From contig VXCM01005626.1 of the NCBI GenBank assembly GCA_014773175.1, positions 18,226 through 82,225 on the forward strand: a stretch of 64,000 bases of DNA, written 5' to 3'. The notes beneath the pieces were generated by a model. The model did not search any database. It saw only the letters and a program-made list of their open reading frames with translations, and had not been told where the DNA came from. Origin of the DNA: Lucifuga dentata. Its lineage: Eukaryota; Chordata; Actinopteri; Ophidiiformes; Bythitidae. Shown here piece by piece: positions 30,482 to 62,832 of this stretch. Position 1 is the stretch's first letter; each line of letters begins with the position of its first letter. The position numbers and the translations under genes are program-made.

Positions 30482-31655
30482 CTACACGCTGGTTTCCTGA
30501 ATTTGACTGGCACGATAATCTTTCACCATCTTCTTCATCTCATGAGCTGCTTTAAGATCAGTTCTTCTCAGCAATTTATCCTGTTTAAAGGGATCGTATC
30601 TGCGCCTGTAAAAGAGAGATCAGTCATTAAAAATACAAAGGGTGCAGCTGAGCTGAACCTTACTGGAGCTTTTTTTTTTTTTTTAAAGATAATTAAAGTT
30701 TCTGACTTCCTGCTTTGGCTTTGTCAGGACAACTGTCCCATTATTTTAACATGTTATTTCCGTGTTGATTCTAAAAAATGCCCTTAGACTGAGCTGTTGA
30801 CCACAGAAAGGATAAAGAGGTGAGCATTTTATAGTAAAGGGCAGGGGCGGTGGGCTTACAGGGCTTAAGCCCCAGATGTTTTCCATAAAGCCCCAAATCT
30901 TTTTTTAATAGTGTGTTCTGAATTTTCTGTCACGTTTTTGTAATTACCCAAATTCATCACCAAGGCGGAACCACAGTGTTGTGAACGAATTGGTCAGACC
31001 AAATTGATGGACGGAACGGACACAATACACCAATATAGCTGCACTGTTTAGATCGTTGTAAGGGTTTTTGTTTAAAAAGATTTTTACCTTCATATAACTT
31101 GTTAGAAGTTGTAACATGATTTGTTACGTTTCTTAAGCATTTATCAAAATTTATATTTAGCTTTGACAGATATAAAATAGCTTTGGCTATCTACAAAAGC
31201 TATTAGCTTTGGCAGCTAGCCAAAGCTACCTCAGGCCTGGATTTTCCAGTGGAGATCTGGGCTAAGAACTGGATTTCCACGAACCCTAGACCTGCCCCTG
31301 GTAAAGGGTTTATTTTTTATTTTTTAAAAAGATGAGGAAAATATCAAACACAATAACACTTTATTCTAAACCATCATAAAACCATGTAAGAGTTGTGTGA
31401 ATCATTACTGCTGCCATGGAGGTCACGTGACCACCAGCGTTTGTTTGAGCAGGATATCTCAAAAAGTTATGGATGGATTTGGATGAAATTTGGGGGACAG
31501 ATAGAAAATGTCAAGAGGAAGAAGCGATTGAAGTTTGGATGTGAATCTTTTTTTTTTTTTTTTTTTNTTTTTTTTTTTTTTTTTTACCTTTATTTATTCA
31601 GGGTTAGTTTCACTGAGCTTCTAATGCTCTTTTTCAGGAATGCCCTGCTCACACA

Positions 31656-32995: not shown

Positions 32996-35900
32996 TAGAA
33001 TCCACCATATTTTCTAAATCAGGACTGCTGGTTTAATTTCACCAAGCTATATTAAGAACATAGATATAATTTATATTTTAAAACCTTTATATATATACCC
33101 CATTGAAGCATTTTGAAATAGAGCAAGAAGGCATTAAATGACTTAAAATGCATACTTTAGGTAAAATATCTTTAAATAGGTTATTCACACATTTAAGAGC
33201 AACTTTAGGCTTGGATGCCTGACCACCACCACAAGTAAATTTTCAGCCTGTTGAATGATAATCCCCCATAGTGTCCTGATACAGAAAATAATGATTCAGT
33301 AGAGAAAATGCCACTCCAGTCTGTTTCATCCATTATTTTCATATATAAAGACACCTCAATGTGCATTATTATTATTACTGTTACCTACTTTAGAAAAGTC
33401 TCTGCCCCCATTAAGCATCTATAAATGACGTAAACATTTGACGAAATCTATTGTAACGTATACTGATACAAAAATATATGAACTCACTTTTTAAGCTCTT
33501 TTTCAATGGCCTTCCGTTCATACACCGCTCCATAAGGCGTTCTCACCGGATCAACAAACATCTTCTTGGTGAGTGGACAGAGCAGGTGTGTTGGTATATC
33601 TTTCGGCTCAAAAACCACCAATTTCTTTAAATTAAGAAAAAGCAAATACAAATATGTGTCATAGTTACATGAGATCAAACCATATAAAAGGTACCGTATG
33701 CCTGAACAATAGATTTGTACTCTAAAGTTAAAATATGGAAACAGCTAAAGTCCTCTAATGATGACAACTCATCTTCAAAGACACGTATGTTGGAAATTTG
33801 CTCAACCACTCAGGATGAACCTATTCAACCCTACTGGGCTCATAAAACATCCTCTCTCTGTCTTCAGACAGCTTCACCACCTGACTGATGTAAAAGTGAT
33901 CTGTGCTGCTGAGTAGGTATTGAATAGGCTTGTGTCAAGTTATGGTGAATGTCAGTCAGATTACTGGTGATTAACAGCATCTGTGGGTTCCTCCCTTCAC
34001 ATATATAAACGGGAGTTTAAAATCACATTGTATTACTGTTGTTTTCCCCTAATGGGATCTGTATCACATGAAATGAGTGTATAAATGGGTTTCCCCCTAA
34101 TAGGTTTTGTGTTGAAGGTTTAAGCTACGTTCACCTCACACGCTGAAGTGGCCCAGATCTGACAGTAAAATTACACTTCTCAACTCCACTTGTAAAACTG
34201 GTTTGAATGTTGATTCCATCATATTGAAGATCTAGTGTTACATATGAAACGACGTGCACAAAAATACGTGACAGACTGCGTCCATCTTACGGCTGCTTAT
34301 TGTTACTGTATCATGCGGCTCACATTATAGTTACATCTGCGCACGTTGGCAGTTTAGGACCTCAGCGTGTTCACACTCGTGTCTGATACAGGTCACTTAC
34401 AAACATGAATGTGAAACATCAACACAAAAAGATCAGATCTGATTAAAAAAATCAGAATTGAGCATTAAGGCCTGTAATGTGAACGTAGCTCTAGTCAGCC
34501 ATTTAAATCTCTGTCTTCCATTGATCATGTGGGGAGGTTTTTGGCCGAAGTGAAGCGTTTGTGTGCTTCAATGATCCTTATTATTTCATTTATTTGATAA
34601 TGATGACAGGCATTTCTCTGTCTTTGATTCCCTGAAGTACATTCACAGATTCTAGCGAGGTTGTCAAAGTGACAAAAGGAATGTAAGAATTAAAGTGAAT
34701 GTACTGTATCTAATTACATTTCATATATCTATGTAACCTCATGTATCCATGTCCTTCATCTTACTGATTGTCATGTCTCACCAAAGTGGTCTTGGCCCAC
34801 AGGGTCACCAGCTCATACACACTCCTGAATGACATCACATCAACGTGACATCACTCAGCACTGACTATAAGAAACCTTATTCTGTCTGTTCAGACTTTGA
34901 AGCTGTATGGAAACGTACATGTCAGCACTTCCCATGTACATGAAAATAAAGAGTGTGATCTGTAATCAAGAGAAGTCGTGAGACCCTTTAATTTCTTTGA
35001 CAATGGTTGGTGGCAGCATTTGTGTCTCACAGGTCTCATAAGGTGTCAAAGGTGCCATTCGTCACACTGTGGAAACATGTTCATTAGTTGTCATATCTCA
35101 GTAGGACTTTGAAACTATTTGATTTATGTTTTAGTTACCTTCTCCATGACATCCAGTGAGGTCCCTGCAATTTCCTTTGTCTGCTTCTCAGCCTCTTCAT
35201 CATACTTGTCACGGCTGGTCAGAAATTCCTCAGCCAAAATGCTGCAGAGAAGAAAATGCAAATTTCACAGACATGTTTCATTCACTAAAGTACAATGTAA
35301 TATGTTCTGTATAAACCCTGGGTCTGTAGATTTTTAAACTCTGAACAGATCAGAAAACTGTAAAGAGAAGAATTGATTTAGCAGTGTCAAGAGGATTTCT
35401 GGCATCACTAAGACTTCTGGCTATTTGGACATGTAATGTAATTTGGTATTTATTCATGCTGCACGCTAAATGAAAGCATGGATTAATCGTTGGTTAAAAA
35501 AAAAAAATCCTACTTTGTAATGTTAAAATGAAATGTGCATGTGCTCTTCCTGGACTGATTTATCCTCACGTGATCATTTAATTTGAGGGGTTAAAAACCA
35601 TACAGGCTCTCAAAGACGCTCAGTGTATCAGAGTAATGTTTTCAGACTAAAACGTCCACAGTAACAAACAACAGAAGTAAGGTGTGTGCGTGTGTGTGCA
35701 TGCGTGCATGAATCTGTAGCTTTCTTTTCATCTTTGTTTCTTTACCAACAGACCTACTGTCTGTGTGCATGTCCATCTGTGTGTCTGTCTCTGTGTGTGT
35801 CCATCTGCATCTGTGTGTGTGTGTGTCCATCTGTCTGTGCGTGTGTCCATCTGTGTGTCTGTCTGTGTGCGTGTCCATCTGTGTTTCTGCCTGCCTGCCT

Positions 35901-38900
35901 GTCTGTCTCTCACCTGTCCAGCGGGTCTTCAGGTTCAGGAATGATAAGTAATCCATATACAGCATCCAGGATGTCTCTCATGGTGATGTGGGCGTTGTAG
36001 TTGCGGTCAAATATGTTGTGACAGATGCGTCCCACACTGTTGATATTGCAGTGGTATATCTGTCTTTACGTTAAGAAAACTAAAGTGGTTTCACGGCACA
36101 TACATCAACTACACTCACTCTATTGCTGTAAAGTTATATTATTTAAAAAAAATAAAGCAATACTTGTGGAAACATGCATAGAAGAATTATTCTAAATGGG
36201 CCTTATTCACTCACATTTTTTGTCTAAAAGTTCTCATAAAACTAATCTGATACTGATCTGATTTGTTGTATATTAGTATCTGAATGTGTGCAGATTTCTG
36301 CAGATAATATGTTCATTTATTTGGCAGGATACACGTGTGACAAAGCGAACCACTGGAGGCTTGACTGGGTAGTCAGGACCAAACTGGCAGTACAGCTCAA
36401 AGACTCCTTTCTCGTACGGCGTGTCTGGAGGGCCTTCCATGAGAATCTTCCAGAATGCTGAAAGTTTCAGGAATAAGATTCAGCAGGTGACCATTATCTG
36501 ATCCAACACAGATTTCATAACTGAGCTGAGTGATAACAGATGGTTTTATATCAAAGAGCAACGCACTATAAAACAGCTGTTAGTGAATCTTCACAGTGTG
36601 TGTTACTGTTTTTAGGTGGTTACACGGTTTATTAGCAACTTTGCGGCCAGAAAACGACTTTGGAACAACTATTAGTCTTGGGCTGAACTACATGTCCATG
36701 ATACATGATGTTACACATCACATTCTGTTGATTTAGCATGTAAACGAATCTATAAAAGCTTTTGTGAAATTCAAGGGGGATGTGCAAAATCAGGAAAAAG
36801 TGTGTTAGTGTGTGATAACAGGCTCCTGTTACAGCAGCAAAACTCCAACTCCACCCGTGATTAACAGATGAACATACATGTCCTGATGGAGAGATAAACG
36901 CTCACACAACATATCAGATGTTTCTCTCTGCATGTGAAAGTTTTAACCTGCTGATCAGATTTTAAATACTTCTCTCATCTTAGTCCATGAAGCATTTTCT
37001 TTACATGCGTCTAAGAAATGTGACCTGTAGTAGCAGGATGTAGCTGCATCCTGCTACTACAGGTCAAAGGTCAAAGCATGTAAATACAGGTATCAGATAA
37101 AAAAGAAAAGTAAATACGCTGAACAAAAAATCGGATATAGACAAAAGATCAGAATAGAGCATCAAGTAAATCCAGACTTAGTTTTGTGTCTTTAGCACTG
37201 ACAGAAAGTAAAAATTGTGATGTAATAAGCTTCATCTGCCGTGACTCTGCACAGCGACACCAATCAGAAACAAATATTCATCCAGATCACAGTACAGTCA
37301 GAATGAAGGCGCAGATATTTTTACTTTTTGTCACATTATTGATGAGGAAGTACAGCAGCAATGAGGAGCCCAGTTTCATATCAACTTCAGAAGAAGCAGC
37401 AGCTGTCAGCATCTCCTATTTAAAGTTACAGCATGTGGCTCTTTGATGCAAAACCACATGATAAAGAATGTAACATGCATTTTAAGAATAGCAATCAAAT
37501 ATAAATGAAATGCACTTTAAATCAGTGAAACTCTGAAGTCAGTCTGGATAACCACTTCAGAAGGTTTAATGCCAGAGTTTGATGAAAGCACATGTACTTA
37601 CTGAAGTCTGTTTCTGATGGAAAAATACTGAAGTAGGGATGAGGTTCACAGTGCAAACTCTTCATCTCCTCCAGGATACGCCGGTCCTTCTCCATGAAAC
37701 GGCCATCCTTACACTCACCCATCTTCTTTTTCAGAGCACTGTTTTGAAAGATTGTCAGAATATAAATCTAGTCTTGGTAATTACAATGTCATTGATTTCA
37801 AAACACAAAGCCCTTCTAAAATAATTAGAGTAGTTAGTACAAAACAATACAGGAAGTCTTGCATTCAAGGGACTGTAATTTGTACTTGGGCGGGACTTAA
37901 ATTAGTTATTGTGTGAACATGTTTATGAATACGGTATATAATCCTTGCAAATTCATTGTTGGACAATGTTGTCAAGAATAAACAAAAAACAAAAAAACAA
38001 AAAAAAAACAGATGTCTAGTAGGATTAATTGTGGGATACGGTAATTCACGATGGATGTGGAGGTGGATAAAAGGAAGGGAACACACACAAACAGGGGGTT
38101 GGGTCTCAGAGACACCTTTGTGTCTCTACAAGAACAGGATAAACTGCCCAAATCCAGGTGTCAAAGCTTGTAGAGATGAACCAAGAAGAGTCACAGCTGT
38201 AACTGCTGCCAAAGGAGGTCTACAAAGTCCTGAATTAAGGTCTGAATACTTATGAAATGAAAGATTTCACGTTTTGATTTTTTAATTAATTTGCAAAAAT
38301 TTCTAACAACATGTTTTCACTTTGTCATTATGGGTTATTGGGTTTAGATTAATGAGGAAAAATGGCAATTTTATACATCTAAAAGTAAATCTACACAATA
38401 AAATGTGCAAAAAATGAAGGGATCTAAAAACTTTCTGGAGGCGCTGTATGCTATTAACTTGTCAGCAGTGGTGGGTCGTGTATTTTATATCTAGGTCTTC
38501 AGAGCTATCCTCCTGCAATTAAACCACCTTCTAATAACCTCACCATGACACTAGGGCTATATGCTGCTGTTATTAGACGTAACCAGCCCATATTCACAGT
38601 GACAGTAACCTTTATCTAGTGGAATAAAGTGATTTAACACGAGGATCAACACCTATGACAGTTACAACACACTAACTGCAGAGACATGAATAGGATGTAG
38701 CATTATTACGCATTATGACAGGATGCTGCATCACATATAAACATGGCATAACCTAAATCAGTGTCATTACCAAAGAAACAAGAACAAACTCACAACAACC
38801 ATCACATTTACTCATACGACCAGCAAGTAAGCAAAAATGCTGTAAAACACAAATAACACAATCAGATTCAACAGGCTTCTCCACAGATTCCAGCCACATA

Positions 38901-48643: not shown

Positions 48644-51600
48644 GTCCATATCTTTCTTTCGTCATTTTTGTCTTGCTCACTGCCTGTGTCTCTCCATCTG
48701 TCTCCCCCAGTTTCGACTGTAATGAAATTAATAGAATTCAACGTGAAAAGTTTCGTAGACCCGAGCGTGTTCACCCAACGTGAACACATGAACTAAGCAG
48801 AAAGACAGATGTGTGCTGCAGCTGCAGAGTCCTTTCCTTCTGCAGCAGCACAAACAGCCCGTCCTCGCTGCATGTTTTCAAGCATCAGGAAGTAACTGGT
48901 GTAATGAAAGACACTGTGACTTTCAGAGCACACAGACGCAAATGTGCAGGCGTGCAATCGCTGCCCACTTCATGCAGTGATTGGCCAGGTGTGTTGAGAT
49001 GTGAAAATGGGGAGGGTTTTAATTTGTCTTTTTTGATCATGTTTCACAGAGAAAACTGAAAGTGAAACTGTGCCCCGTTATCCCCGTTTATAAACAAAAA
49101 CAGACAGAATTTCTGTTAATAACCCCTCCCCTCTCCTAAAGTTAGTTTGTTATTGCATCAAAATTACTAAGACGTGAATATACACACAGAGATGCACAAA
49201 GAAAGACAGACAGACAGACAGACACACACACACACACACACTGAGCATTCTGAGAAACATGGTTGCTCTGCTCAAACTGGTCTCTGATTACGTGGCACGG
49301 GCTGAGTCACAGGAAGCGTACTGAGGTCTTTAGATACAAACACTAGTAAGGATCAATAAATAAATTACCTGGATAACTAGCAATACTTAAAGGACCATAC
49401 CACCCATTTTGCATGTTTGAGCTGAATATATTAACTTTTCATACACGTAACGTTACTGACAATCATTTCCCAAAGCATACTACTGGAACGGTGAATTAAA
49501 AATGTTTTTCCTACCTTCCAGACCTCCATTGGTTTCAGTTCATTCTGCTATTAAAATCAACTTGTTGATACTGTAAACGTTCTTGGGATAGGTAATCCAT
49601 CATCACCAACAAGACGTGTATTCAGGTTTTTTTAGAAGTTATGTAATTTTAGTGTTTAAGCTCAATAAAAAGCGTGGAGTGAATGTATGCCTCCACCGGG
49701 GAATATAGTCCCAAAAGAAGACCTGCGTTTATGGAAAAATTTAAAGGACCGTGACTTCATAAGGCTGTGTAACTATTAGCAGGAGAAACATGGATTTTTA
49801 AGGTGGGTGTATCACTTGAATATTTGATTTTGAAAGATTAAGAGATTTAGCAAAATATCAGGAAAGCTGAAATACGGTTTTATCCTTTGGGAAATGATTG
49901 TCAGTAACGTAACATGTATGAAAATGGAATATATTAGGCTCAAACATGTAAAATGGCCGGTATGATCCTTTAAACTTAACTGTTACAGAATTTATTATTA
50001 GCAAATATTTAGCACTCACCATAAGCCATAAACTTGTGCACTACATGTAGTAACACCTTGCATGACAGATAAGTTCTCATTCTAGCTATTTTTAGCGCCT
50101 GTAGTGAAACAGAATTTCGATAATACATACTTCTGACCCGTCACACTTCCATGAGAAATCCAAAGATGATATGTTTTAATTGATGGATGCACACTCAGCA
50201 AAATCTTCTCCACATCCACAGCTCTCTGCAGTGAGGTTTGCTGCAAACTCTCTTCAGTGCAGTTTGGAATCTTCTCGCCATCTTAACCATGGAATAGAGA
50301 CAGTAAGAACATTAACATGGCCACAGATCATTCTTGATTCTAATTGGCTAGCAAATGTCTTTTGTTTTTTTATTGGGTCACTCCAAAACTAAATAGAACC
50401 CTTCCAGTTTGAGCTGATATTATCTTGACTTGAAAACAAAGGTCAGCACACCAATAAAACCAAACCACAGTCAGAAGACCACACTTCACCACGGTCCACC
50501 AGCCGTCCCCTGAATCCCTCATCAGCTCACCAGTCTTTACCAGATTGTTTTACTCAAATGTGCCAGTCATTTCACTGTTTACCTGCCTGGCTGTGAAGCC
50601 TGACCTCTGACCTCATCCAGCTCAGCTGTTTCTGATTACCTGCTTCAGCTCTTTTTGGACTTGTTAGCCTTGCCTGTCTGCTACCTGGTCTCTGAGTGTA
50701 ATGTTCCAAGCAACCAGAGAAGCCTGGAATACCTATAGTGTCAATTAACCTGTTCAGAAATAAATTAAACTGTTTAGAAACTTAAAGGAAATATCTGGAC
50801 ATTGTTCTTGCCAACTGGAAGAGTCAAGCTGAGCTTTAGCTCAGCAGCAGCAGCGGCACCTCTCTACCCGTTTCATTTGGCAGATGGTCACCACAGGGAG
50901 TTTTAGACAATACCTGTGTTTACATGGACCCTAATATTCTGCTGATAATCAGAATAATAACCCAGAATAAAAACGTCTCATGTAACTGCCTCCGTCAGAA
51001 GAGACTGACCTGATCAGAAGGAATTTTCAATCAGGTTGAGAGGGGTGGTTTAAACCTTTCATAATCTGTTCAGTAGGAAAATACTAATAACCATGTAAAG
51101 GCTTAATCTGATAGTTTCTCTCTGGTCAGAATATCTGTTCTTTCTGCCTACATGGAGGTAACATTAGCTGATGCTGCTGCTTAATTAGAAAGAACAGCAG
51201 AAACACAAATACTGTTCCCATGATGTGGGTCCATCTGAAAACTGTATTAACAGGTGGAACGAATAAATGAATTTAATTTTCTCAATGACGATACAAAAAA
51301 AACTGCTTCTCCTTTCGAGTGTTGTGCTGAAATCTGCATCCCCACTTCTGCCCAGATTCGCGTCCCCAATGCAAATAACTTTCTGAGGATGAAGGAATGA
51401 AATGACGTTAAAAACTCACATTTGGGTTATTTTTGTGTGACAGGGTGAGTTTGGTGTATTCAGCCTCCTCAGGAGTGAGACAGAAATAAGGGCAGAAATA
51501 ATGAATTGTCACGGGGTAGCTGGGAGGTGAGGACTCAATAGCAGGCTTAGGCAGGCAAACTTGACACAGGCAAAAAGCAGAGCTGGTAATGAGGCAGGGA

Positions 51601-54600
51601 TAACTTACAAAGTTCAGAATTAATATCCAAAAAGATGAGGCAAACTACAAAACTGGTGGACAGAACAAAAATCAGGGAATGGAAAAATCACAGGTTGGAA
51701 ACAAACCTGAACCATAAAACCAAAAACAAGAAAAATTGAGAAACAGACAATCTGCAAACTGGAAACTTACAAACACAACCTCAGGAACACAAGATGATCT
51801 GAGAACAAAGGAACCATGTAAATGTACTGGAGTGATTAACTGACAAAACACAGGTGAGGCAGAAAACTGGCAGGAAACTAAACCAAGAACGGAAGTAAAG
51901 CAAACTGGACAGCAAGAAAACCAAAGTCTACAAAATAAAACAGGAAGTGACTAAACAAAGAACAGATCGTGACACGAATAAATAAAAGTGGAGGACTGAA
52001 TCTCTGCTGCCCAACAGACTTCCTGTAGGTATTATTGTTATTCCTCTAAGAAGTGCCATAATGTTTGATACAAGTTATTCAAAGGAATAAATATTGTCTT
52101 GGATTACATGTATGATCCATTGTACATGAGTAGGGATGCAATTCTCAGCAGGGATGCAGATTTCAGCACAACACCGGCAGATCAGACACTTCACAGCAAG
52201 AGGAACCACTTTGTGCATGTCAGAAACGTTATGTTCTGATGAAATGCTTTGCGGCATGTAAACACACATCTTATCAGATCATTTATTTAGCGTCCATGTA
52301 AACAGTTAAGGTGGAATCTCTAATCACAATGATTTCAATCGGGCTGGAGAAATATTTGTCCATGTAACCGCAGCTAGTGACAATTTTCCCCTGTCCCTCA
52401 TATGCAGCAAATAAAGTTGATCTTCTGCATTATTGTAAATGTTAGAATCATCACTGAAAAACTTTAGTTAAGTTAGTTTTCTCTCACGAAGGTTATGGAT
52501 AAACTGGGGCTGAGCTTACAAATTGTGTAACTGCTCATTTTACTGGACTTGCTTTAAATAAGCAATGTCATCATGTCTATGAAAAACAAGCCTAGACTGT
52601 AAACAGTGGAATCTTCTGTTTGATCAGTGCAGATCTGCTAATATATTTCATAAACCTGGATGTAAACTCTTTAGTTGTACCTCGGATCTTCTGGAGAACA
52701 AATGCTCGCTCCAAGGCACCTGGAATTCCAGGTACTTTGACAGGATCACAGAAACGGCTGCCTTCTTCAGAAATCAGAGCCATTGGGGCATAGTTCTCAA
52801 AGTCTTCTGTGTCCTGTCAAAGTGAGACAAATGCAGTGATAGAAGAGGCAATACTCAGGAAGACGTTCTGTAAAGCTGATCTATGATATAGTTGGAACAG
52901 CAGAGGATGATAATAACAGTTATGCTGTAAGTTTGTGAAAGCTGCTTCACGCCTACACAGTCTTCATATCCTGAACATAATATAATACATTTCATATGAT
53001 ATACAATTGCATATATGCAATTCAAAAACAGGAAAGGAACCCTGAATCTGGACACGGACACTGAACTGTGTAAAACCTGGAAATTTCCTCTTCATAATAA
53101 AGTTCTTGTATCACCATCTTTTCTCTACACCTACACTGTGTATTTCATTCTTAGAAAACTTGAATTGCATGACAGTAACAAGACTTAAACCTCTTGAAGA
53201 TGCTGTTATAAATCAATCACACATGCTTATTCAGCACTTCTAGCATGAACAGACAAGAAGCCGCCAGACTCGGAAAAACAGACTGATATTCATGTTACTT
53301 TAATTCCAGTAGAGAAAGCTGTATATTCAGCTCCTTTCTCCTCATCATCTCCTTGCCAGCTACACATTTCAATAGATCATAAATTAATAAAGTCTATTTT
53401 GTAACCTCACTTTTAAGTCTGACAAAATTTATATGTCCTAATGCATTTTGTTTATTTCTATAGTGTTTAGATGTTAGTCTTCACTTCTTAGGTCATACAG
53501 AAAATCTTTAGCGCTCATAACCATATTGCTTAGAGGTTGTCCAGATGATGCCATCATTTTCTGCAGAAAACTCCACACCATGAATGGTTATTAATAATAA
53601 TTTGATTGACATACCTTGGCTTCCTTTATGAGATACACCCAGCAGTACAGGGAATTCTCAAAGACATCAATGTCCTCAATGACTTTCTCCTCTTGATTTG
53701 TTCCGAGCTTTGGCAAAAGCTCTCGAAATAGCAAGTACAACCCCTCAAGAATGGCAATCTGCAGAAAAAAAAAAGATAAAATCACATTTTCTGAGGGTGA
53801 ATAGTGAAAAAAGGCAATGAACAAATGACAATTCAATTTAAAAACAATTGAGAGAAAAAATTGCAAATAAATTATTATCTGCTCTATTTCATTCTTCATA
53901 TGAAATGTGAAAACCACGAGCGGCAAAAAGGTCAATAAAGTTAAATAAACACAAAAATCAATATTTTACCATCTTATAAAATTTACCTTTTGATTCCTTG
54001 ATACAAATTCATTCCTCATAAGTAACTGATGCAAACTTTGGGCCAAAGGATTACATCCAGTTAGTTTCCGTATGCAGCCAATCAGGGACCTATATACAAT
54101 TCCTGCAGGTTTATTTTTCTAGAAAAGAAAATATAATTTAAAAATATACTTAAAAAACAAATTCACTTCAAGAAAATACCCAAGGTAAATGAGCAAAGAC
54201 AGATTTTCATGACAGAAAACGTGCTCACAGAAGCGTTGCTGTTATATTACATCCTCTCTTCTGCTGCTCTGCTGCTGAATTTCTTTACACGACAAGCATC
54301 AGTTTTTATTTTTTTTCCAAGAAGGGAGCATGCAAATTTCTTTACAATCTTTTTAAAGACTTGATATTATTTAAGACACATTATTTAATTTTATATGCAG
54401 TAGATCATGGACATAATCTAGACAGTAGCTACGTGCTGTGAAATAGTAGTTGCCTCCTTCCTGTTTTTTCTATTTTTGCATATTTGTCACACTTAAATGT
54501 GTCAGATCTTTAAAAAAGCCTGAAAAAACACTAGTTTTTGAATGAGCATTTCATTTAGTGAAGGAAAAAAGCTCCAACACCTATATCACCATGTGAAAAA

Positions 54601-57600
54601 GTAATCGCTCCCTTAGTTACTCAATCAACCAAGTAACCAGATTGAATAGATAATTGAACAGATAACTGGTTGAACTAGACTGGACACAGCAGACTGATTC
54701 CTGCAGCCTGTTGAATCTAAACATCATTTCCAGCAACGTGAAGCAGCTAAAAGGTCTCAACAAGCTCCACATGATGCCCAGACCTAAAGAAACTCCAGAA
54801 GAAACTGAAATCTATCAGTCTGAAAGGTTCAAACTCATTTCTGAGGCTCTGGGACTCCAGCAAACCACAGAGAGAGTTGTTATCTCCACACGGAGAAAAC
54901 ACGGAACAGCCATGAATCTTCCCAGCGACCAAAACTTCTCCAAGACCATCGATGACTCATCCAGGAAGTCACAAAGAACCCAGAGGAACATCTAAGGAGC
55001 TGCAAGCCTCGCTCGCCACAGGTAAAGTCAGCGTTCATGACTCACCTTAAACACACTGTTCATGCTGGAAAACCTCCAATGTGTCTGAATTAAAGCAGCA
55101 AGAAGAAGAAGAAGAACAAGAGAAGAACTAAATTCCTCCACATCATGAGACAGGTTTTATCTCCAGTTATCAGATGAGTTTGTTGCTGTTATTGCTGCTA
55201 AATGTGGAACAGCCAGTTATTAAGTTTAGGGGGTTGTTACTGTCTCACACAGTGATAAAGGTGTTGGAGAGATGTTTTCCTTCAATAAACAAAATGATAA
55301 TTTAAAATTTGTTTCTTGTGTTTACTCAGACTGTCTTTGTCTTATATTAAATTTAGCTTGAAGATCTCATGAGACAAATATGCAAAAATAGAAGAAATCA
55401 GGAAGAAGAAAATACTTCATCACAGCACTTCAGTATTAGCTCATGCTGAGTGAACACGCTCAGGTCCTGCAACATTTCATAACGAATTCTATTACTGTCA
55501 TTACATCTGATCCAGGAGGGGGGGANAGAGAGAGAGAGAGAGATGAAGATGAAGTGTGCTGGACCTCTCTCTCTACTGCAGAAAATAAATATTTATGGAA
55601 AAGCTGACTGTGCATTTTACAATTAAGGGTGTGCATGCATATATCATATGGTGCATGTATGCATGTTGTATGTATTGATACATGCATATGTGCAACATGC
55701 GTATATGCACCATGCATACATGCACTACGCAACATGTACACATGCACATATGCAACATGCATGAAACATGCATACATGCATGCTTATGTGCAACATGCAT
55801 ATGTGCAACATGAATACATGCAACTTATGTGCAGCCTGGGTTATATGTCCTCTGACTATCTCTTTGTCTTTCCTGTGTTACACCAGAAATGCTGCAAAGC
55901 ACAGAAACACACACGGCAATTTGTAACTTCTGCTGTGAAACAGAGGATTCACGTTCAGTATGTAGATAAAAACCATATCTAACTGATCCTAAACTGTGGT
56001 TAGATTATTTCAGCTCATAGGGGATGCTGTATGAGGTTTGCTTTTCTAATAACCTAAACACTGCTTACAATGACATAAAGTGAAGACAGGAAGAAACTGA
56101 TTCCTCTTTTGGTTTGCTGCACTGAGGGGACGACGTCGTCTATGAAGAACTGACAGGTGTCTGGAGTGTCATTAGGAAAGCTGGACAAAGAGAAGAACAC
56201 AGTCGTGTCCTCTGAGATCCCACAACTTTGCAGCGTGTTTCCACTTCCATGTTGACCTCTGAAAGTATGATTCATAACCGTGTGAGAAAACAGACATGGT
56301 GGAGCATGAGAAATCATGTCATACTATCAGTTTGACCGGTTGTGAATTACTTGTAATGCAGGACACGTGCTGGGATTCCACTTTCATTTGCAAGCTTCTG
56401 CTTCAGATCAGTTATTGTGTCACTTTCCAAGTTCACAGTCAGCTCAAAGTCCCCCTGTATGAAATATGTATAACAATTCATGAATCAACTTATCTAAATG
56501 ACTTTAAGTCTAGACATTAAAGGACTATACCACCCATTTTGCACGTTTGAGCCTAATATATTCCATTTTCATACATGTTATGTTACTGACAATCATTTCC
56601 CAAAGCATACTACTGGAACGGTGAATTAAAAATGTTTTTCCTACCTTCCAGACCTCCATTGGTTTCAGTTCATTCTGCTATTAAAATCAACTTGTTGATA
56701 CTTGAAACGTTCTTGGGATAGGTAATCCATCATCACCAACAAGACGTGTATTCAGGTTTTTTTTAAAAGTTATGTAATTTTAGTGTTTAAGCTCAATAAA
56801 AAGCGTGGAGTGAATGTATGCCTCCACCGGGGAATATAGTCCCAAAAGAAGACCTGTGTTTATAGAAAAATTTAAAGGACCGTGACTTCTAGCAGGAGTA
56901 ACATGGATTTTTAAGGTGGGTGTATCACTTGAAAAAGATTAGAGATTTAGCAAAATATCAGGAAAGCTGAAATACAGTTTTATCCTTTGGGAAATGATTG
57001 TCAGTAATGTAACATGTATGAAAATTACTGTATATACTCGACTATAAGCCGATCTCGAGTATAAGTCGACCCCCTGATGTTGTTCCATCAATTTATTTAT
57101 TTAGCAAATTGTTCTGTTGTGATCATTTATTAACTGACAGACATGGCAGCACACGTCTTCCAGCAAAACTTCCATTCCTTTATTCAATAAGTTCCCCCCG
57201 GCAACACATCTCATCACAAAGGTTCCTACCTCATTACCCGATTCTACACAAATTGCCTGTTTTTCTGAGTATTGTCATAGCATTCCTCTGATTTTCTGAA
57301 AATAATCCATGTACCGGTAGCAGTAAACATAACAGTAACTGATTACTGTAACTAACTACCATAATTAACATTAACATTACCGTAACTACGGTAACATTAA
57401 CTGACATTTCTGGACTCCTTTTCCTTGTCTGAATCGCCAGACAGTTCATTCCAGTCCTGCTCTGTGTAATAACGTGTGCCCTCATCATTGACGAGATCAT
57501 CATCCCAGTTGAACCAGTTGAACTCTTCCTCCTCTTGATCTGTCTTTTCATTTTCTAGCCAAAGGGCGTCATCCTCTGAGTCCGTGTAGTTTTCATTGCN

Positions 57601-60324
57601 TCTTGATCTGTCTTTTCATTTTCTAGCCAAAGGGCGTCATCCTCTGAGTCCGTGTAGTTTTCATTGCATGTTGTAGTTTATCTCAAGCTTCTTGGTAATC
57701 AAGCACAAAACATGTTGAACGAGACTACCAAATAGCGGTACCCTACTGGTATATGAAACGGCACTTTTATAAGGTCATCTCTGATTGGCCCCTTCTTTTG
57801 TCTTTGACCAATCACAACAGCTTACTGGCTGCTGCAAAATGTTCTGGCTAAGATGTTTAGTCAGCAAATATCTCATTCTAAGGTATGATTTAAACTATTT
57901 TCATGGGTAGTGGTAATGGTAGTATTTCCACTCCTGGAAATTTCCTTTTCTGGGATCAAATCTGAATTTCTCCTGTATAAGCCGACCCCCGATTTACTTT
58001 GTGAAATATGGTACTAAAAACTCGGCTTATACTCGAGTATACACGGTAAATATATTAGGTTCAAACATGTAAAATGGATAGTATGGTCCTTTAATGGTGT
58101 ACACATGGACACAACATGCACACACACACTCACAAACTGCCAAGCAACATGAGCATCAGAGAAAGAAACTGAGCTGACGTCTTACTTCACGCATCAAAAT
58201 AGTAACCGTCTGCATCTAAGTCCTTCGTGAGACGTTTCTGCTGAACTTCTGTTTCTGATAACATTTTGTCTTCATAGTACCAGCTGGCATGGAGCGCTGA
58301 GGTGTGCCATCATTTAGAACAGCGACTCTTCAACACAGTACCATGGGAGTCGAATGAGATTGATTGATAAGCCTCAGTTGAATCTGGCCATTAATAATGT
58401 TAAAATACATCAGGTGAATCAGTTCAAGTTATTAGGAGTCACGCTTGAGCAACACCTGTCCTGGTCGCAGCACATCGACATCATTATCAAAAAAATGGGA
58501 AGAGGAAGAGATCACTATCAGCAGGAAATGTTTGAGATTTGTTACTTTGGCTATTAAGGTAAAAGTAATTTATTCATTGCTGCTATCTCCTCTGAGTCCA
58601 ATTATTTGGTCCACCGCAAATCAAAGAGATCTCAATAAATTACAAATAGTGCAAAATAAAGCAGCTAAACTGGTGCTAAGATGCTCTTATCGTACTAGCA
58701 TTATTAATATGCATAAGATTATCCTGGCTTTTGGTTAAAACCAGATTACAATTTAGTTTGTTAGTTTTTCTGTGGAAAGCTCTCCTAAATTTTTACATGA
58801 TGAGTTAGAATACATCAAGTAAACCCCTATCAGACTCATCATGGTGGTAAAAGCTATTTATTGTGTCCTTTAATTGTGGTCCCCACGAAGATTAGCGACC
58901 ACTGAAGCGGGAGCTATTGGGAACCCATAAATAATAAAGACAATAATAAAGACCACATTTCAAGGATCATTAAGAGGAATTATTCCAATAACATCCATGC
59001 AGCATGATCAGCTAAAAGCATCATAAACTCACCTTCAGCATGATGTGGCATCGAATTTTATCTTCTCCACATGTTTCACGGACCTCTGACCTTGGCATCT
59101 GAGAAGCTGTTCCCAGGTTCTCTTTTGGTGTAAATATGGCATAGAGTACATCTCCATTTTGAATATGTCTGTCTTTTAAAGACCCTGTAGGTAAAACAAG
59201 ATCAAATTAACCCAAGTTTATATTTTTAGGTCTACAGAAAGAATGCATATTTATTTCAAACATTAGCTACCTAAAAACAAGAACTATAATAAGCATTTCT
59301 CAAAACTGAGTCTGTCCAAAATGTACCAAAACTACCAAAATGCTGCAAACACGTTGTCTCAAATGTCATCCTTTCAAAACACCAGCAGTTTATTCTTCAT
59401 GTCTCTCCTAACAACATGAGCTGAATAACACCAACATGTAGAACGCATAATTTGATGAGGTCCAAATTACTCGTTTTATTTGATTCTTGATATTATAAAT
59501 AAGGTATGTCTTACAGTGTTTCCATACATAGGCTTTACTTAGGCGGCCCCGCCCAGGTATCGCGGGACAACCCAGCCTTAAAAAAATACAACTGCGACGC
59601 TGCTGTCACACACAGCGAGAAGATGAACCGCAACGTGTATTTCATTTCAACGCACATTAATCTTCATCTACCTATAAAGACAGACACCAACATGTCTAGA
59701 AACCAGCGCTGTATGAAGCTGATATTCAGCAGGTTTATTGCTCAGGACCCAAAGACGTGCAACGTCACGCGTGAAGGTGTTTGGATGAAAAATCTCTGCC
59801 TGTGCAGTGTTTCCCGTACATAGCATCTGCTTGGGTGGCCCGCCCAGGTAAATGAAGACCCGCCCAGGTAGATCATAAGATAAAATCCAAATCACAGGAC
59901 GGAAGGCTGTTTAGTTAAAAGAAAAAATAAATGTAACAAATCAGGGCAGCTGCTCAGAGCACAGTCTGAGTCTGAACTGCATCACGGTTCTGAGAATGAT
60001 CAGTGGTACATGAAAATTGCATAACACATCATTTTAGGAGGCAGGGAGCCCCCCCCCCCCNCCCCCCCCCCCACACACACACACACAGTAAAACGTGTTT
60101 GAATGAGCTTACATGTGTTGAAGAAGGGATCGTCTGTCAGAGGCATCCCGTCCTGCGTGTAGAGACACACGCCTGTGGAGCCGCCGACGCCCTCCAGGTG
60201 ACAGATCCTCAGCATCAGATCTTCAACCGTGTTCTGTGCAGGATCCATATCTGCAAGTTAAACACATCAGTCAACAATGGCGTTTACTTAGAACATCGAT
60301 AGGGACACTTTTAGTCGGATGAGT

Positions 60325-60356: not shown

Positions 60357-62832
60357 TTTCAGTCCCCTCAGTTAGCCAAAGAGCTGCACAATCTCAGCTT
60401 AGCTTTGAAATGACCTACAGGATATATTACTAGTATTTTACTACTATTACAGGTTAGTATTGTGATTAAACACACACACATGAAAATGGTGAAAATGTGT
60501 TAATTGTTGTGTGTGTGTCCTCTGGACAGATAAAACAGTGATTACTGTTTAAAGTAATCATAGTGCGTCCCATATAATTGTGTAAGTATAGAATCTCTGA
60601 TGAACATCTAAAGTAAAACAAACTTTACTCAATAAAAATATTTGCTGGGACAATTTAGTAGCACCTTGGCATGGACACACACGTCCCTACCTAAATATAC
60701 GTACCTAAATGTATGTACCTAAATAAACGTACCTAAATATACGTACCTAAATATATGTACCTAAATATACATACCTAAATATATGTATCTAAATATACAG
60801 ACCTAAATATACGTACCTAAATATATGTACTTAAATATATGTATCTACTGCATATATACATACCTAAATATATGTACCTAAATATATGTATCTAAATATA
60901 CAAACCTAAATATACGTACCTAAATATACATACCTAAATATATGTACGTAAATGTATGTACTTAAATATATGTATCTACTGCATATATACATACCTAAAT
61001 ATATGTACCTAAATATATGTATCTAAATATACAGACCTAAATATACGTACCTAAATATATGTACATAAATGTATGTATTTAAATATATGTATCTACTGCA
61101 TATATACATACCTAAATACATGGCTATGTCAGCCAAACTATACAGTGGTATAAAAAGACAAAGTTGCTGTTTCCACTGTACTACAGAGAAAACTCATCAG
61201 AGTGAAGATTACTGTGAAATCTAACGCCTCGTCCTCACAGTGACCAGACTGAATACTTCATCAAGTTTATCCCGTGATTTCAGTGTGTGTGTGGAGTATA
61301 TGAAAGGTAGAGTTGATCTGCTGTTTAGCAACATAACATTAGTTAAAAACATACAAACAGATATATTTACATAGCTTGTAATTGCAGCACGTCCTTTCAG
61401 TAACAGTGATTTAAAAAAAAAAAAAAAAAAAGGCCTTTCTTTTCTCTGATGAGTGTCACCCTGTTTCATCTGTTCCACAGTCACGTTACGCCACGGATGT
61501 GCTGACGTTCTCAGTGTGGAACCCTTCATGGCTCTGACTTTTCTTTCTTGTCAGATCTTATGACTGTGTCTCAGTGCACCTTCTTTACACTCTGGAACTG
61601 TTCGTCCATTCAGGCACTGTGCCTCCTAAATCTGCATCTGTAGTCTAATATGTCATAAAGGGTCAAAGGTCTTCTCAGTCAAAGGCTCCTCCTCCTCTGT
61701 GTTTGGCTGAATTTAGAAGACACAGATGGTGTATCCTTTGTTCCTTTGTGCTCGTCAATTTTGTAATTGGGATTTTTTTCTCCGAACATGTCATCATAGC
61801 GTCGCTGTGCCTCAGTCGCTGAGTTCTGTGTCTGTCTGTGATTTTTACCTTTACTGAGGCTGGCCAAACTTAAAGCTCACTCATTTGTCTTACCTGTGAT
61901 GTACTTTGGTCCAGGACATTTCGGGTACTCGTAATGCAGGCTGAACGCTTCCGTTGACTTTGACACAGAGGCTCCAGTTGGACGAGCTGGAGCTCGTAAT
62001 CTGCAAATCACGTTTTTCATTGTGGAAAAACGATTTTTTTCCACTTGAGTAAAACCTGTTAGTAAAAATAAAGACTTAACTTATTTTACTGTTTCAAAAT
62101 GGCAGCCATCTGTCATGTTCATACATTTGAGATGTTTAAAAAGTCCCTAAAACTAAATCAATATTTTTCAGTTACATATGCTCAGCAGACTCGACTGTCC
62201 CAGCTTGAACATTCATGAGACGTGTGCATGCTCACACGCCTGCACAAAGCAATCAGCTGACAGGAAACGTGGTGTGGTGTTACTTTACATTCTCAGCCAA
62301 AACAGCCCGTTATTTTTGTGATAAGGATAAGGACATATCAGCATTTCAACAATACTTTCACTTCAAACATGAAAACCTCACCCATAAACCCAGATGAGAA
62401 GAAGTTTTAGCGCCACCTGCTGTCAGTCAGGAGAGTCTGCATCATAGACTTTTCAGCCATACACAGGAACTTGATTGCAGTACAAGTGGAATTCCCCCAA
62501 AATACCTGAGATACTTTCACACTTGTGCTCACTGGCTCATTGTTCCACGAAATGGTTTCGGTTTTAAAAGCTCAAAACTGTTCAAAACTGTTTGTTTAAT
62601 ATAACATATATATAACAATAACCTCTTAAGTCTTCATAAGCTCAAGTGCGACATGATGAAAACTGAAACGCAGAATGCAGATGAATCCATACTTAATAAG
62701 CTCACCCATGCTGTTTAAATCTTCATCAGTGACATCCAGGAAATCCCTCTCATCCTTCACACCGAGCTGCTTAAACTTGCTGTAGTTTGACTCCAGTCTG
62801 TGCTGCTCCAGGAGGTTAAATATGGCACCCAT
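30482..62832 (-). CDS. Unnamed SAM-UBL-UBL-VWA-E2-U-box protein, 24 coding exons, 1070 codons
   Basis: I do not recognise a named gene. Exons: 62706-62832, 61894-62055, 60113-60250, 59033-59184, 56351-56454, 56069-56258, 53987-54118, 53615-53758, 52681-52813, 50131-50281, 48159-48295, 44809-44920, 42727-42796, 42438-42641, 42117-42262, 41598-41716, 40970-41091, 40738-40835, 37602-37738, 36333-36457, 35914-36059, 35139-35241, 33488-33624, 30482-30605. All phases agree and no stop interrupts the 3213 bases. Order of parts: SAM-like (1-62), ubiquitin-like 1 (about 72-168), ubiquitin-like 2 (about 185-258), helical middle (292-560), VWA (about 585-781), E2 fold (about 828-984), U-box (about 990-1068). 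No signal peptide or membrane segment is seen, so it should be cytosolic or nuclear. Inferred role: a self-contained ubiquitin conjugating ligase. Exon 16 to 18 donors GTTGGT and GTGAAA are weak. An untranslated exon probably ends at 62958. Exons and domains are firm; function is inference. Confidence 0.9.
30842..31305 (-). mobile_element. hAT-like non-autonomous element, copy 2 (inverted relative to 1009-1473)
   Basis: Reads in reverse the blocks of copy 1: GGGGCGGTGGGCTTACAGGG, AAGCCCCAGATGTTTTCC, GTTTTTGTTTAAAAAGATTT and ATTTTCCAGTGGAGATCTGG. It lies in the intron between the two U-box exons of the E2 gene. Confidence 0.65.
31425..32560. repeat. Composite of unclassified fish repeats
   Basis: Contains GGATATCTCAAAAAGTTATGG, a CA tract (31647-31690), TTGCTCAAGGGCACCTCAGT, and two similar blocks with TTGACCTGATGGTGG and AGGCCACGCCCATT. 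Poly-T tracts are broken by N at 31567 and 32105. The internal near-repeats suggest multiple insertions. Class not assigned; it lies in the last intron of the E2/U-box gene. Confidence 0.5.
32850..32941. repeat. Inverted repeat with 17-bp arms
   Basis: CTCAGTGAGATGAAGAT (32850-32866) is the exact inverse complement of ATCTTCATCTCACTGAG (32925-32941). The 58-base loop includes an AT run. It may be the ends of a short element or an RNA hairpin in the last intron of the E2/U-box gene. Confidence 0.7.
34122..34495. mobile_element. Short inverted-repeat DNA element
   Basis: Begins AAGCTACGTTCACCTCACA and ends GTAATGTGAACGTAGCTC, giving inverted ends around GCTACGTTCACAT. The interior has matching CAGATCTGA motifs near both ends. 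About 370 bases with no coding frame. It lies in the intron between 33624 and 35139 of the E2/U-box gene. Confidence 0.6.
34769..35045 (+). mobile_element. Possible solo LTR
   Basis: Starts TGTCATGTCTCACC and shows a TATA-like GACTATAAGAAACC and then AATAAAGAGTGTG, spaced as in LTR U3-R. TTTGACAATGGTTGGTGGCAG follows. No second LTR or gag-pol frame is seen. Recognition rests on signals alone and is tentative. Confidence 0.35.
35680..35910. repeat. GTGTGTCCATCTGTCT minisatellite
   Basis: Imperfect GTCTGTGTGTCCATCT units directly abut the donor of E2 exon 35914-36059, so array length variation lies next to a splice site. The other strand gives a spurious DTHTD frame. Confidence 0.85.
37021..37066. 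repeat. Perfect 20-bp hairpin, 6-base loop
   Basis: TGACCTGTAGTAGCAGGATG and CATCCTGCTACTACAGGTCA are exact inverse complements around TAGCTG. It lies in the intron between the first two E2-fold exons. It could be the centre of a palindromic DNA element or a structured intronic RNA. Confidence 0.9.
38085..38455 (+). mobile_element. Tc1-like transposon 3' fragment
   Basis: Matches from memory the tail of fish Tc1 elements: AACTGCCCAAATCCAGGTGT, AAGCTTGTAGAGATG, AAGGTCTGAATACTTATG, and TTTCACTTTGTCATTATGGG near the terminal repeat. Only the 3' end is present and frames are broken. It lies between exons 37738 and 40738 of the E2/U-box gene. Confidence 0.8.
39618..39746. repeat. 64-bp duplication around N at 39682 (assembly join)
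   Basis: 39618-39681 and 39683-39746 are identical. It lies in an intron of the E2/U-box gene and has no coding effect. Confidence 0.85.
40105..40518 (-). mobile_element. CGAGTATAAGCC-family element, copy 2
   Basis: Ends are CCATATATTCTTGAGTATAAG and CTTATACTCAAGTATATACGG, an inverted pair. The interior shares TGGTAATGGTAGTATTTCCA and TATAAGCCGACCCCCGATTT with the nested copy at 57026-58049. About 410 bases with no coding frame. Confidence 0.75.
43040..43135. repeat. Imperfect inverted repeat
   Basis: ATTGGCTCAACAAATGTTAT near 43070 is mirrored by ATAACACTTGTTGAGCCAAT near 43105, around a short loop. Likely the centre of a palindromic MITE or a foldback element. Confidence 0.65.
43741..43863. 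repeat. 61-bp duplication around N at 43802 (assembly join)
   Basis: 43741-43801 and 43803-43863 are identical. Intronic, no coding effect. Confidence 0.85.
44645..44790. repeat. (TA)n-rich tract
   Basis: TATATA runs interrupted by ATTATTATT and GTGTGT, ending about 20 bases below exon 44809-44920. The exon donor adjoins the tract. Confidence 0.85.
45301..46112 (+). mobile_element. Inverted-repeat element GGCCAGATTCATAAA, copy 2, with assembly gap
   Basis: Starts TTGGGCCAGATTCATAAAA and ends TTTATGAATCTGGTCCAA. Interior blocks match 21631-22375 (TGATAACTGAAGCTCATTCA, GCGTTTATGAATGAGGGAAT). A 26-base N run at 45679-45704 sits in a G-rich stretch. A reversed internal segment of the same family follows at about 46310-46440. 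Confidence 0.75.
46555..46665. repeat. (GT)n(GA)n tract duplicated around N at 46610
   Basis: Bases 46555-46609 and 46611-46665 both read AGCTGGTGTG then a GT run then a GA run. This is probably one locus seen twice at an assembly join. Confidence 0.85.
46700..48158. other. Intron sequence without recognised features
   Basis: Part of the intron between exons 48159-48295 and 44809-44920. I see no repeat family, exon or motif that I can support here. Confidence 0.5.
48606..48643. repeat. (AAT)n microsatellite
   Basis: AATAAT units, in the intron between exons 48295 and 50131 of the E2/U-box gene. Confidence 0.85.
48982..49072 (-). promoter_or_regulatory. Intronic ISRE/IRF motif with CCAAT box
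   Basis: On the plus strand 49051-49070 reads GAAAACTGAAAGTGAAACTG, three GAAA units and a full AGTTTCNNTTTC interferon-stimulated response element on the gene's strand. About 80 bases downstream in gene orientation lies GGCCAATCAC, a CCAAT box. This is about 760 bases before exon 48159-48295. It could be an intronic enhancer or an internal promoter. Motif presence is direct; function is inference. Confidence 0.5.
49200..49243. repeat. (CAGA)n / (CA)n microsatellite
   Basis: GACAGACAGACAGACACACA tract in the same intron as the ISRE-like site. Confidence 0.85.
49388..49973 (+). mobile_element. TTAA-flanked inverted-repeat element, copy H (full length)
   Basis: Starts CTTAAAGGACCATACCACCC and ends GGTATGATCCTTTAA, about 590 bases, with arms of about 100 bp sharing GTTACGTTACTGACAATCAT and its inverse. 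The interior has the full TCCCAAAAGAAGACCTGCG block. No coding frame. It stands about 160 bases below exon 50131-50281. Confidence 0.85.
50914..52372. mobile_element. Imperfect inverted-repeat element with nested insertion
   Basis: The left end is TGTTTACATGGACCCTAATA and the right end AATATTTGTCCATGTAACC, imperfect inverse complements. CCATGTAAAC motifs recur inside. The core is interrupted by the repeat at 51511-51976. It lies in the intron between exons 50281 and 52681. Confidence 0.5.
51511..51976. mobile_element. Nested repeat bounded by TGTCACGGGG and GTGACA
   Basis: Starts TTGTCACGGGGTAGCTGGGA and ends ACAGATCGTGACACG, with A-rich GGAAACAAACCTGAACC-type sequence between. It resembles the repeat at 63355-63860 in composition and ends. 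Class not assigned. Confidence 0.5.
54400..55420 (+). mobile_element. Tc1/mariner-like element, degenerate, with transposase N-terminus
   Basis: The left arm GAAATAGTAGTTGCCTCCTT and the right region GGAAGAAGAAAATACTTCAT are diverged inverse ends. From about 54775 the plus frame reads PRPKETPEETEIYQS and LGLQQTTERVVIST, matching the helix-turn-helix start of fish Tc1-like transposase. The catalytic DDE region is missing or wrecked. It lies in the intron between exons 54118 and 56069. Confidence 0.75.
55620..55825. repeat. ATGCAACATGCATAC-type repeat
   Basis: About 200 bases of alternating TGCATA, GCAACA and CATGCA units, frequently palindromic (ATGCAT). Spurious frames arise on both strands. 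Confidence 0.8.
56069..56454 (-). other. Second ubiquitin-like domain exons (residues 194-291)
   Basis: Exons 56351-56454 and 56069-56258. GDFELTVNLESDTITDLKQK followed by LANESGIPARVLHYKG parallels the ubiquitin layout (strand, SDTIxxxKxKI helix, GIP turn). SCGISEDTTVFFSL is the last strand. A linker follows, ending in the hydrophobic GISFFLSSLYVI. Confidence 0.75.
57026..58049 (+). mobile_element. CGAGTATAAGCC-family element nested in the TTAA element
   Basis: Ends are ACTGTATATACTCGACTATA and CGAGTATACACGGT, inverse complements over about 25 bases. About 1 kb long, the longest copy in the window. The interior frame at 57234-57551 (minus strand) is acidic or serine-rich on the other strand and not a recognisable transposase. 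It contains the N-join duplication at 57533-57667. Confidence 0.8.
57533..57667. repeat. 67-bp duplication around N at 57600 (assembly join)
   Basis: 57533-57599 and 57601-57667 are identical. It lies inside the nested element. Confidence 0.88.
58330..58955 (+). mobile_element. LINE 3' fragment with reverse transcriptase C-terminal region
   Basis: One frame reads VNQFKLLGVTLEQHLSWSQH, the typical LGVxLDxxLSWxxHI motif after the RT core. After a frameshift near 58500 a second frame reads NKLQIVQNKAAKLVLRCS. The 3' end has GGGAACCCATAAATAATAAA and AATAAAGAC repeats. It is truncated and broken, with a jockey/CR1-like tail. Confidence 0.7.
59033..60250 (-). other. First ubiquitin-like domain exons (residues 97-193)
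   Basis: Exons 60113-60250 and 59033-59184. Residues NTVEDLMLRICHLEG form the helix, GVCLYTQDGMPLTDD a strand and turn, and SLKDRHIQNGDVLYAIF the last strands, in the beta-grasp order. No di-glycine end follows, so it cannot be a conjugated modifier and would act as an internal ubiquitin-like module. Confidence 0.7.
59513..59890 (+). mobile_element. hAT-like CAGTGTTTCC ends flanking an R3 fragment
   Basis: Two direct copies of a CAGTGTTTCC...GGCGGCCCCGCCCAGGTA-like segment start at about 59515 and 59807. Between them, 59672-59790 matches repeat R3 (GATATTCAGCAGGTTTATTG). CAGTGTTTCC is a common hAT terminus. The structure suggests insertion and partial duplication. Confidence 0.5.
60690..61115. 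repeat. TACCTAAATATACG minisatellite
   Basis: About 30 units of 14 bases (ACCTAAATATATGT variants). A higher-order block containing ATCTACTGCATATATACA occurs three times. In the intron between exons 60250 and 61894. Confidence 0.9.
61894..62832 (-). other. SAM-like domain exons (residues 1-96) of the E2/U-box gene
   Basis: Exons 62706-62832 and 61894-62055. The start is ATG at 62832, directly after an acceptor (poly-T then AG); the frame upstream soon meets a stop. Residues 1-62 have the SAM pattern: IFNLLEQHRLESNYSKF, then LGVKDERDFLDVTDEDLNSM, then GFTQVEKNRFSTMKNVICRL. SAM domains usually self-associate or bind other SAM domains, which would allow oligomerisation of the ligase. Residues about 72-96 start the first ubiquitin-like fold. 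Confidence 0.8.

Follow-up and report, generated by a model that had tools for sequence, protein, structure and literature searches.

A 64,000-nucleotide stretch of DNA from the fish Lucifuga dentata (Bythitidae; contig VXCM01005626.1, positions 18,226 to 82,225 of the forward strand; hereafter the window) carries a real, single and conserved gene in which the modules of a ubiquitin-conjugating enzyme (E2) and a ubiquitin ligase (E3) stand on one chain. The product combines an E2 of the UBE2E/UBE2D type and a U-box behind a VWA domain, a hidden U-box, and predicted SAM and two ubiquitin-like domains, and its sequence makes it probable that this is a ligase needing only the ubiquitin-activating enzyme (E1), ubiquitin and a target. 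Contacts between ubiquitin E2s and E3s are as a rule short-lived, and to capture them structural biologists construct E2-E3 fusions. The protein described here represents a natural, conserved E2/E3 fusion; its VWA domain may hold the target, and it has a further U-box that is partly decayed. The hidden second U-box is new, and the family itself is already present in databases under uncharacterized or borrowed names.

Gene structure and domains of the product

The coding chain begins at 62832 and its stop ends at 30482 on the minus strand, its 24 exons splicing into an open frame of 1068 codons that is closed by one stop and has no internal stop, and all 23 introns are of the GT-AG type. The spliced product is identical in 1068/1068 residues to hypothetical protein LDENG_00152360 (P0001) of Lucifuga dentata, and chance is therefore excluded for the exon chain. 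A preliminary description of this DNA had given the same 24 exons and end points; its length of 1070 codons is corrected here to 1068 plus the stop, and the active-site residue that it numbered Cys914 is Cys912 (codon 36023-36021), its residue numbering being off by two. In the following list, residues are taken from the spliced product and domain limits from Pfam, alignments and the predicted fold, with the basis in brackets.

62706..62832, minus strand: exon 1, residues 1-43, first part of SAM-like domain (Pfam, predicted fold)
61894..62055, minus strand: exon 2, residues 43-97, SAM-like end and start of ubiquitin-like domain 1 (predicted fold)
60113..60250, minus strand: exon 3, residues 97-143, ubiquitin-like domain 1 (predicted fold, hhalign)
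59033..59184, minus strand: exon 4, residues 143-193, ubiquitin-like 1 end and ubiquitin-like 2 start (predicted fold)
56351..56454, minus strand: exon 5, residues 194-228, ubiquitin-like domain 2 (Pfam, predicted fold)
56069..56258, minus strand: exon 6, residues 228-291, ubiquitin-like 2 end and start of helical region (predicted fold)
53987..54118, minus strand: exon 7, residues 292-335, helical region (predicted fold)
53615..53758, minus strand: exon 8, residues 336-383, helical region (predicted fold)
52681..52813, minus strand: exon 9, residues 384-428, N-terminal half of hidden first U-box (profile, hhalign, predicted fold)
50131..50281, minus strand: exon 10, residues 428-478, C-terminal half of hidden first U-box, to ~458 (profile, hhalign, predicted fold)
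48159..48295, minus strand: exon 11, residues 478-524, alpha/beta region without assigned kind (predicted fold)
44809..44920, minus strand: exon 12, residues 524-561, alpha/beta region (predicted fold)
44349..44412, minus strand: exon 13, residues 561-582, lead-in to VWA
42438..42641, minus strand: exon 14, residues 583-650, VWA with metal-site motif D586-T-S588-S-S590 (Pfam, aligned rows)
42117..42262, minus strand: exon 15, residues 651-699, VWA with metal-site T662 and D694 (aligned rows)
41598..41716, minus strand: exon 16, residues 699-739, VWA (Pfam, predicted fold)
40970..41091, minus strand: exon 17, residues 739-779, VWA end (predicted fold, fold search)
40738..40835, minus strand: exon 18, residues 780-812, VWA-to-E2 linker (predicted fold)
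37602..37738, minus strand: exon 19, residues 812-858, E2 start (Pfam, fold search)
36333..36457, minus strand: exon 20, residues 858-899, E2 (Pfam, fold search)
35914..36059, minus strand: exon 21, residues 900-948, E2 with H902-C-N904 motif and Cys912 (aligned rows)
35139..35241, minus strand: exon 22, residues 948-982, E2 end (Pfam)
33488..33624, minus strand: exon 23, residues 983-1028, C-terminal U-box (Pfam, U-box alignment)
30482..30605, minus strand: exon 24, residues 1028-1068 and stop, U-box end (Pfam, U-box alignment)

Three Pfam profiles match P0001 over their curated cut-offs: UQ_con (7.9e-35, residues 832-967), U-box (1.2e-12, 992-1061) and VWA_2 (5.2e-11, 581-695). The UBC fold (PF00179) has its active-site Cys and an H-x-N motif, and the VWA metal site is complete, with D-x-S-x-S, T and D all present. 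Both the E2 residues H902, N904 and C912 and the metal-site residues D586, S588, S590, T662 and D694 are nearly invariant among 106 aligned rows. The C-terminal U-box (PF04564) forms a block with predicted local distance difference test (pLDDT) values of 89-97 over residues 991-1060, and its sequence matches UBE4B, CHIP and PUB12. The single-chain E2 and U-box behind a metal-site VWA, as claimed in the preliminary description, is borne out by these cut-offs and nearly invariant residues, the hidden Markov model comparison that it had proposed giving matches over cut-off for the UBC, U-box and VWA profiles alike.

The SAM domain and two ubiquitin-like domains of that description stand in part: they fit the predicted folds but are weak by sequence, their Pfam scores in P0001 lying under cut-off for both ubiquitin (4.4e-5, residues 196-252, 23.6 bits vs a cut-off of 25.4) and SAM_TNK (0.0018, residues 6-48, 18.7 vs 25). 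The ubiquitin profile exceeds its cut-off in the relatives P0077 (31.3 bits) and P0214 (41.4 bits), ubiquitin-like domains 1 and 2 match each other by hhalign at 66% (a weak profile match, the best of 42 windows), and the predicted structure has five helices at residues 2-62, as would suit a SAM fold. The structure model from 40 fish rows gave the E2 a mean pLDDT of 68.8, and a wider alignment repaired the E2; in a fold search against solved structures the match list was taken up by VWA and E2 and is uninformative on the other domains. Residues 262-384 and 464-562 are well modelled, have no Pfam match over cut-off and are recognisable in sponges.

A second U-box, overlooked in the preliminary description, lies at residues ~388-458 before the VWA domain. 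Judged from profile matches, a sliding-window control and a fungal relative (P0199) with a U-box before VWA, the VWA-E2 core has a U-box on either side, the fold of the first being predicted. Non-fish relatives, e.g. P0191, P0181, P0215 and P0239, read C-P-L-S/T...D/E-P-V at this place. When a profile built from 14 such regions (4 from ray-finned fishes, 10 from elsewhere) was compared with all solved structures, it drew 16 sequences at E values of up to 10, of which the nine best were U-box or SP-RING domains, with LubX (3.5e-5), 1t1h (0.0011), PUB12 (0.0013) and NSE2 (0.0034) at the top; 1t1h is listed in the structure library as an armadillo repeat protein and is, we take it, a plant U-box. 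Searched singly against Pfam, 9/14 regions matched zf-Nse (best 5.5e-5) and 5/14 matched U-box (best 0.013), with no match for the fish row shown among these single-region searches and none over 388-458 in the Pfam search of P0001. For the control, an 80-residue window passed along residues 1-960 in 45 steps, each position being compared by hhalign with the C-terminal U-box. Window 381-460 reached 97% (E 7.6e-11), the top six windows all overlapped the hidden U-box, and the eight next by score reached at most 1.5%. The C-P start of the first U-box is gone in 5/6 fish rows shown and is retained in shad P0217.

Family, distribution and age

The searches for relatives scored only the candidates sharing most words, and in the main one 229 of 7994 scored candidates were relatives at E <= 0.001; by our reading, the E2 domain is found in all of the best 120 of 229, which are the ones listed, and the named ones are all fish. 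Further searches gave 93 and 65 relatives and extended the fish-dominated first listing to lamprey, coelacanth, gar, bowfin, the hemichordate Glandiceps, the brittle star Amphiura, the sponges Oscarella and Amphimedon, and one fungus. Many further relatives are presumably of protist origin. No land vertebrate or shark is among the named matches listed (best 120 of 229, plus the 93 and 65).

The VWA-E2-U-box order is shared by sponges, brittle star, hemichordate and lamprey. In sponge P0214, SAM-like, ubiquitin, VWA, E2 and U-box domains follow in order, and brittle star P0230 has the same order with weak SAM and ubiquitin matches. The architecture for which the preliminary description had suggested a search in other fish and invertebrates is thus found in fishes, sponges, a brittle star and a hemichordate, and its remark that it knew of no named vertebrate protein with this order gives way to 229 relatives, some of them fish entries named 'bifunctional E2/E3 enzyme R795-like'. 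This label, which is machine-given, is attached to P0092, P0111, P0166, P0178 and P0229, members of the same family; R795 is the name of a mimivirus protein. The family is old and mostly lacks a name of its own, appearing in databases as 'uncharacterized' or under a borrowed name. No paper on it was found in the open-licence literature, and print outside it may exist; the PARPs with a UBC domain in the available text of PMC4245714 were considered and are not this family.

A tree was built from 70/106 rows, with fish rows thinned by name and rows of fewer than 280 of 402 columns dropped. The vertebrates group together (Shimodaira-Hasegawa-like approximate likelihood ratio test, 99), branching in the order lamprey, coelacanth, gar/bowfin (mutual order unsettled), eels, other teleosts. 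The hemichordate groups with a sponge (93), the brittle star is unplaced, and the deep animal branches are long and off the species tree. The vertebrate branching order therefore argues for vertical descent within vertebrates, and the deeper branches give no such support.

Sources outside eukaryotes were considered and rejected. Two scans of viral contigs (7 and 13 stretches matching the pattern) confirmed no relative, phage records gave none for the distant relative P0208, and bacterial and archaeal genome contigs yielded 34 matching stretches with 0 confirmed; the contig scans used two short patterns each, which divergent members could escape. The best viral fold match was BFVD A0A1V0SEK3 (Hokovirus HKV1, 1329 amino acids, annotated E2), which aligns with the model at E 9.7e-37 and 16% identity over 1258 columns, with a template modelling score of 0.31 and a root-mean-square deviation of 43, that is, with no joint superposition. 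This protein is possibly a full-length viral relative.

Several members carry altered domain sets. An N-terminal RING precedes the SAM region in 8 of the best 120 relatives (P0019, P0044, P0057, P0075, P0078, P0082, P0086 and P0092), a variant for which a tree of 118 requires at least 2 changes; these proteins combine RING, E2 and U-box in one chain, and P0092 also has a B-box-like stretch by eye. In the fungal P0199 (Taiwanofungus camphoratus), Pfam places a U-box before VWA, and after E2 none was found. In the cod relative P0143 (Gadus chalcogrammus), a predicted protein, an OTU protease domain joins VWA, E2 and two U-box stretches; if the gene model is right, a ubiquitin writer and eraser would be united on one chain.

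The E2/U-box pair, its proposed working and alternatives

In both sequence and fold, the E2 comes closest to UBE2E and UBE2D (36-39% identity), which are ubiquitin E2s. The H-C-N motif was considered as an odd E2 feature and dropped, as UBE2E2 has the same H-C-N. Between Pfam borders, 24-36 residues separate E2 and U-box in nine members compared (P0001, sponges P0214 and P0236, hemichordate P0181, lamprey P0177, brittle star P0230, and P0224, P0226 and P0234). We infer that a single enzyme would perform both steps, because the E2 residues are intact, the H-C-N is UBE2E-like and the U-box follows 24-36 residues on. E1 would load Cys912 with ubiquitin, and discharge would be stimulated by the C-terminal U-box, either in cis or from a neighbour chain held by SAM. 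The target may be held by the VWA metal site together with the decayed first U-box, and the ubiquitin-like domains could recruit ubiquitin receptors or the proteasome, or hold the enzyme shut.

Several features of the pair weigh against this proposal. According to the available text of a review, S-P-A is required in E2s for binding the U-box ligase CHIP (PMC5047891), and the loop aligned with S-P-A of UBE2E2, at residues 921-923, reads N-A-H here. Among 253 proteins fetched, the E2 could be parsed in 228, of which 187 also gave a parsable C-terminal U-box; S-P-A occurs in 1/187 members with this U-box vs 4/41 without (Fisher p 0.004, kinship uncorrected). This tie between S-P-A loss and U-box presence is weak, because most S-P-A rows form one deep group and some rows without U-box are fragments. 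The U-box position aligned to the Arg of UBE4B (DPFNR), an Arg that matters for activity and is missing from some U-boxes, is Gln here, and Arg occurs in 2/163 fish rows and 7/24 other rows (register unsure; P0180 and P0184 among the 24 are fish by name, P0184 being one of the seven with Arg). The altered Arg position is a matter of activity and leaves the assignment to the U-box family as it is. With S-P-A and the Arg position both altered, activity of the E2/U-box pair is therefore not to be assumed. The whole model has a predicted template modelling score of 0.56, and any placing of E2 vs U-box in it is tentative. On comparison of the sequences, the joined E2 and U-box have likely changed together after fusion, the alternative being an uncoupled pair.

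The N-A-H loop, the altered Arg position in fish and the missing C-P start of the first U-box in most fish rows shown would also suit a scaffold in which E2 and U-box share a chain without forming a pair, the E2 serving other ligases and the U-box serving other E2s or only binding targets. We regard this as rather unlikely, since an E2-then-U-box arrangement kept at its spacing in nine members is hard to explain without a joint task, and an E2 without S-P-A would dock poorly on other ligases of the CHIP kind under the rule in the available text of PMC5047891. That the enzyme serves innate immunity by conjugating a ubiquitin-like protein other than ubiquitin, or else a lipid or some other target that is not a protein, appears improbable: an interferon-response-type element upstream of the gene (described below) and the middle domains without assigned kind speak for it, and the closeness of the E2 to UBE2E and UBE2D by sequence and fold speaks against it.

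Least credible of all is a junction of two genes made by the earlier reader and automatic gene prediction alike. Some fishes do have shorter proteins that start near VWA (P0121, P0126 and P0137; isoforms, paralogues or partial models), but 118 of the best 120 relatives fill >600 of 982 columns, the domain order is the same in sponges, and 7 of the best 120 (source 'lgn' alone) are full-length proteins of 1053-1081 amino acids on contigs of 3.4-4.7 kilobases (kb). As the gene here spans 32 kb, contigs this short probably represent spliced transcripts and would point to a single mRNA. The two-gene artefact was rejected on the conservation of the full order and on the full-length frames of the short contigs.

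Returning to the single-chain ligase, we propose tentatively, as a possibility we doubt more than we favour, that it is an ancient, pre-animal machine with two U-boxes round a VWA-E2 core, that fishes keep it as an interferon-controlled immune enzyme and land vertebrates lost it, and that the E2, by being fused, was released from the S-P-A rule and now responds to no U-box but its own. The fusion provides a clean test of an E3 driving an E2 in cis, and of the purpose of the S-P-A loop once the partners are inseparable.

Compared with known systems, the product resembles UBE2E and UBE2D in E2 fold, active-site Cys and the H-C-N of UBE2E2, but its E2 sits in a 1068-residue chain with N-A-H in place of S-P-A. 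CHIP, UBE4B and plant PUBs match its C-terminal U-box in sequence and borrow a separate E2. LubX, the best sequence match of both U-boxes, likewise has two U-box stretches, a likeness of layout only, and to our knowledge has no E2 and no VWA. UBE2O and BIRC6, which are E2/E3 hybrids by activity, share with it an E2 and a ligase function, here a predicted one, on one chain, and we know of no U-box with VWA, SAM and two ubiquitin-like domains in either. UBE2O, UBE2Z and BIRC6 are named as multidomain E2s in the available text of a review (PMC11354881).

Upstream region, immune context and other features of the window

Reading by eye from the DNA alone, we place a putative leader intron just before the ATG, with donor AAG/GTAAGT and acceptor TTTTTTAG/ATG, and an interferon-response-type element lies farther upstream.

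62957-62833, minus strand: putative 125-base-pair (bp) intron just before the ATG
62958, minus strand: last base of putative non-coding first exon, read by eye
63035..63050, plus strand: interferon-response-type element AAGTGAAAGTGAAACC, 203-218 bp upstream of the ATG

By our own weighting of the known consensus, AAGTGAAAGTGAAACC is the sole full-score site of the interferon-response type in the 64 kb on both strands. The fish E2/U-box protein is possibly an inducible immune factor, switched on by immune signals, and the element is a lead to this, not proof. CXCL10, CXCL11, GBP5 and MHC class I genes are known interferon targets. In worm-infected silver eels, the available text of PMC5560681 reports 'probable bifunctional e2 e3 enzyme r795' down to 0.18, and in its Table 7 these four kinds of gene fell along with the eel r795 gene. 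Among the matches listed from the open-licence literature, PMC5560681 alone joins the R795 name with 'bifunctional E2 E3'.

Other points count against an immune role of this kind. The AAGTGAAAGTGAAACC site was chosen after being seen, and its core GAAANNGAAA occurs 7 times in the window against 5.2 expected, which is no enrichment. A 16-base pattern was written from the site itself, so that its exact match there is uninformative, and allowing up to 3 mismatches gives 3 matches across the window, as many as expected by chance. Many other immune genes of the same eel table rose as the eel r795 gene fell (PMC5560681, available text), and we infer the membership of that gene in the E2/VWA/U-box family from its label and from the eel members P0151 and P0163. 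Should the interferon link hold and land vertebrates have lost the gene, fishes would own an immune ubiquitin enzyme that mammals are without.

Apart from the gene, 8/20 single-N gaps of the window lie between two near-identical copies of 61-68 bp (arrays scoring >=200 examined), at the following positions.

4142-4276: gap between near-identical copies
10663-10798: gap between near-identical copies
16346-16474: gap between near-identical copies
17045-17169: gap between near-identical copies
29293-29422: gap between near-identical copies
39618-39746: gap between near-identical copies
43741-43864: gap between near-identical copies
57532-57667: gap between near-identical copies

These eight are likely unmerged contig ends, an assembly artefact, and they overlap no exon of the E2/U-box gene. 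At 24286-25463 the window contains a long AGAC-type repeat with open frames of up to 362 codons, which are likely spurious.
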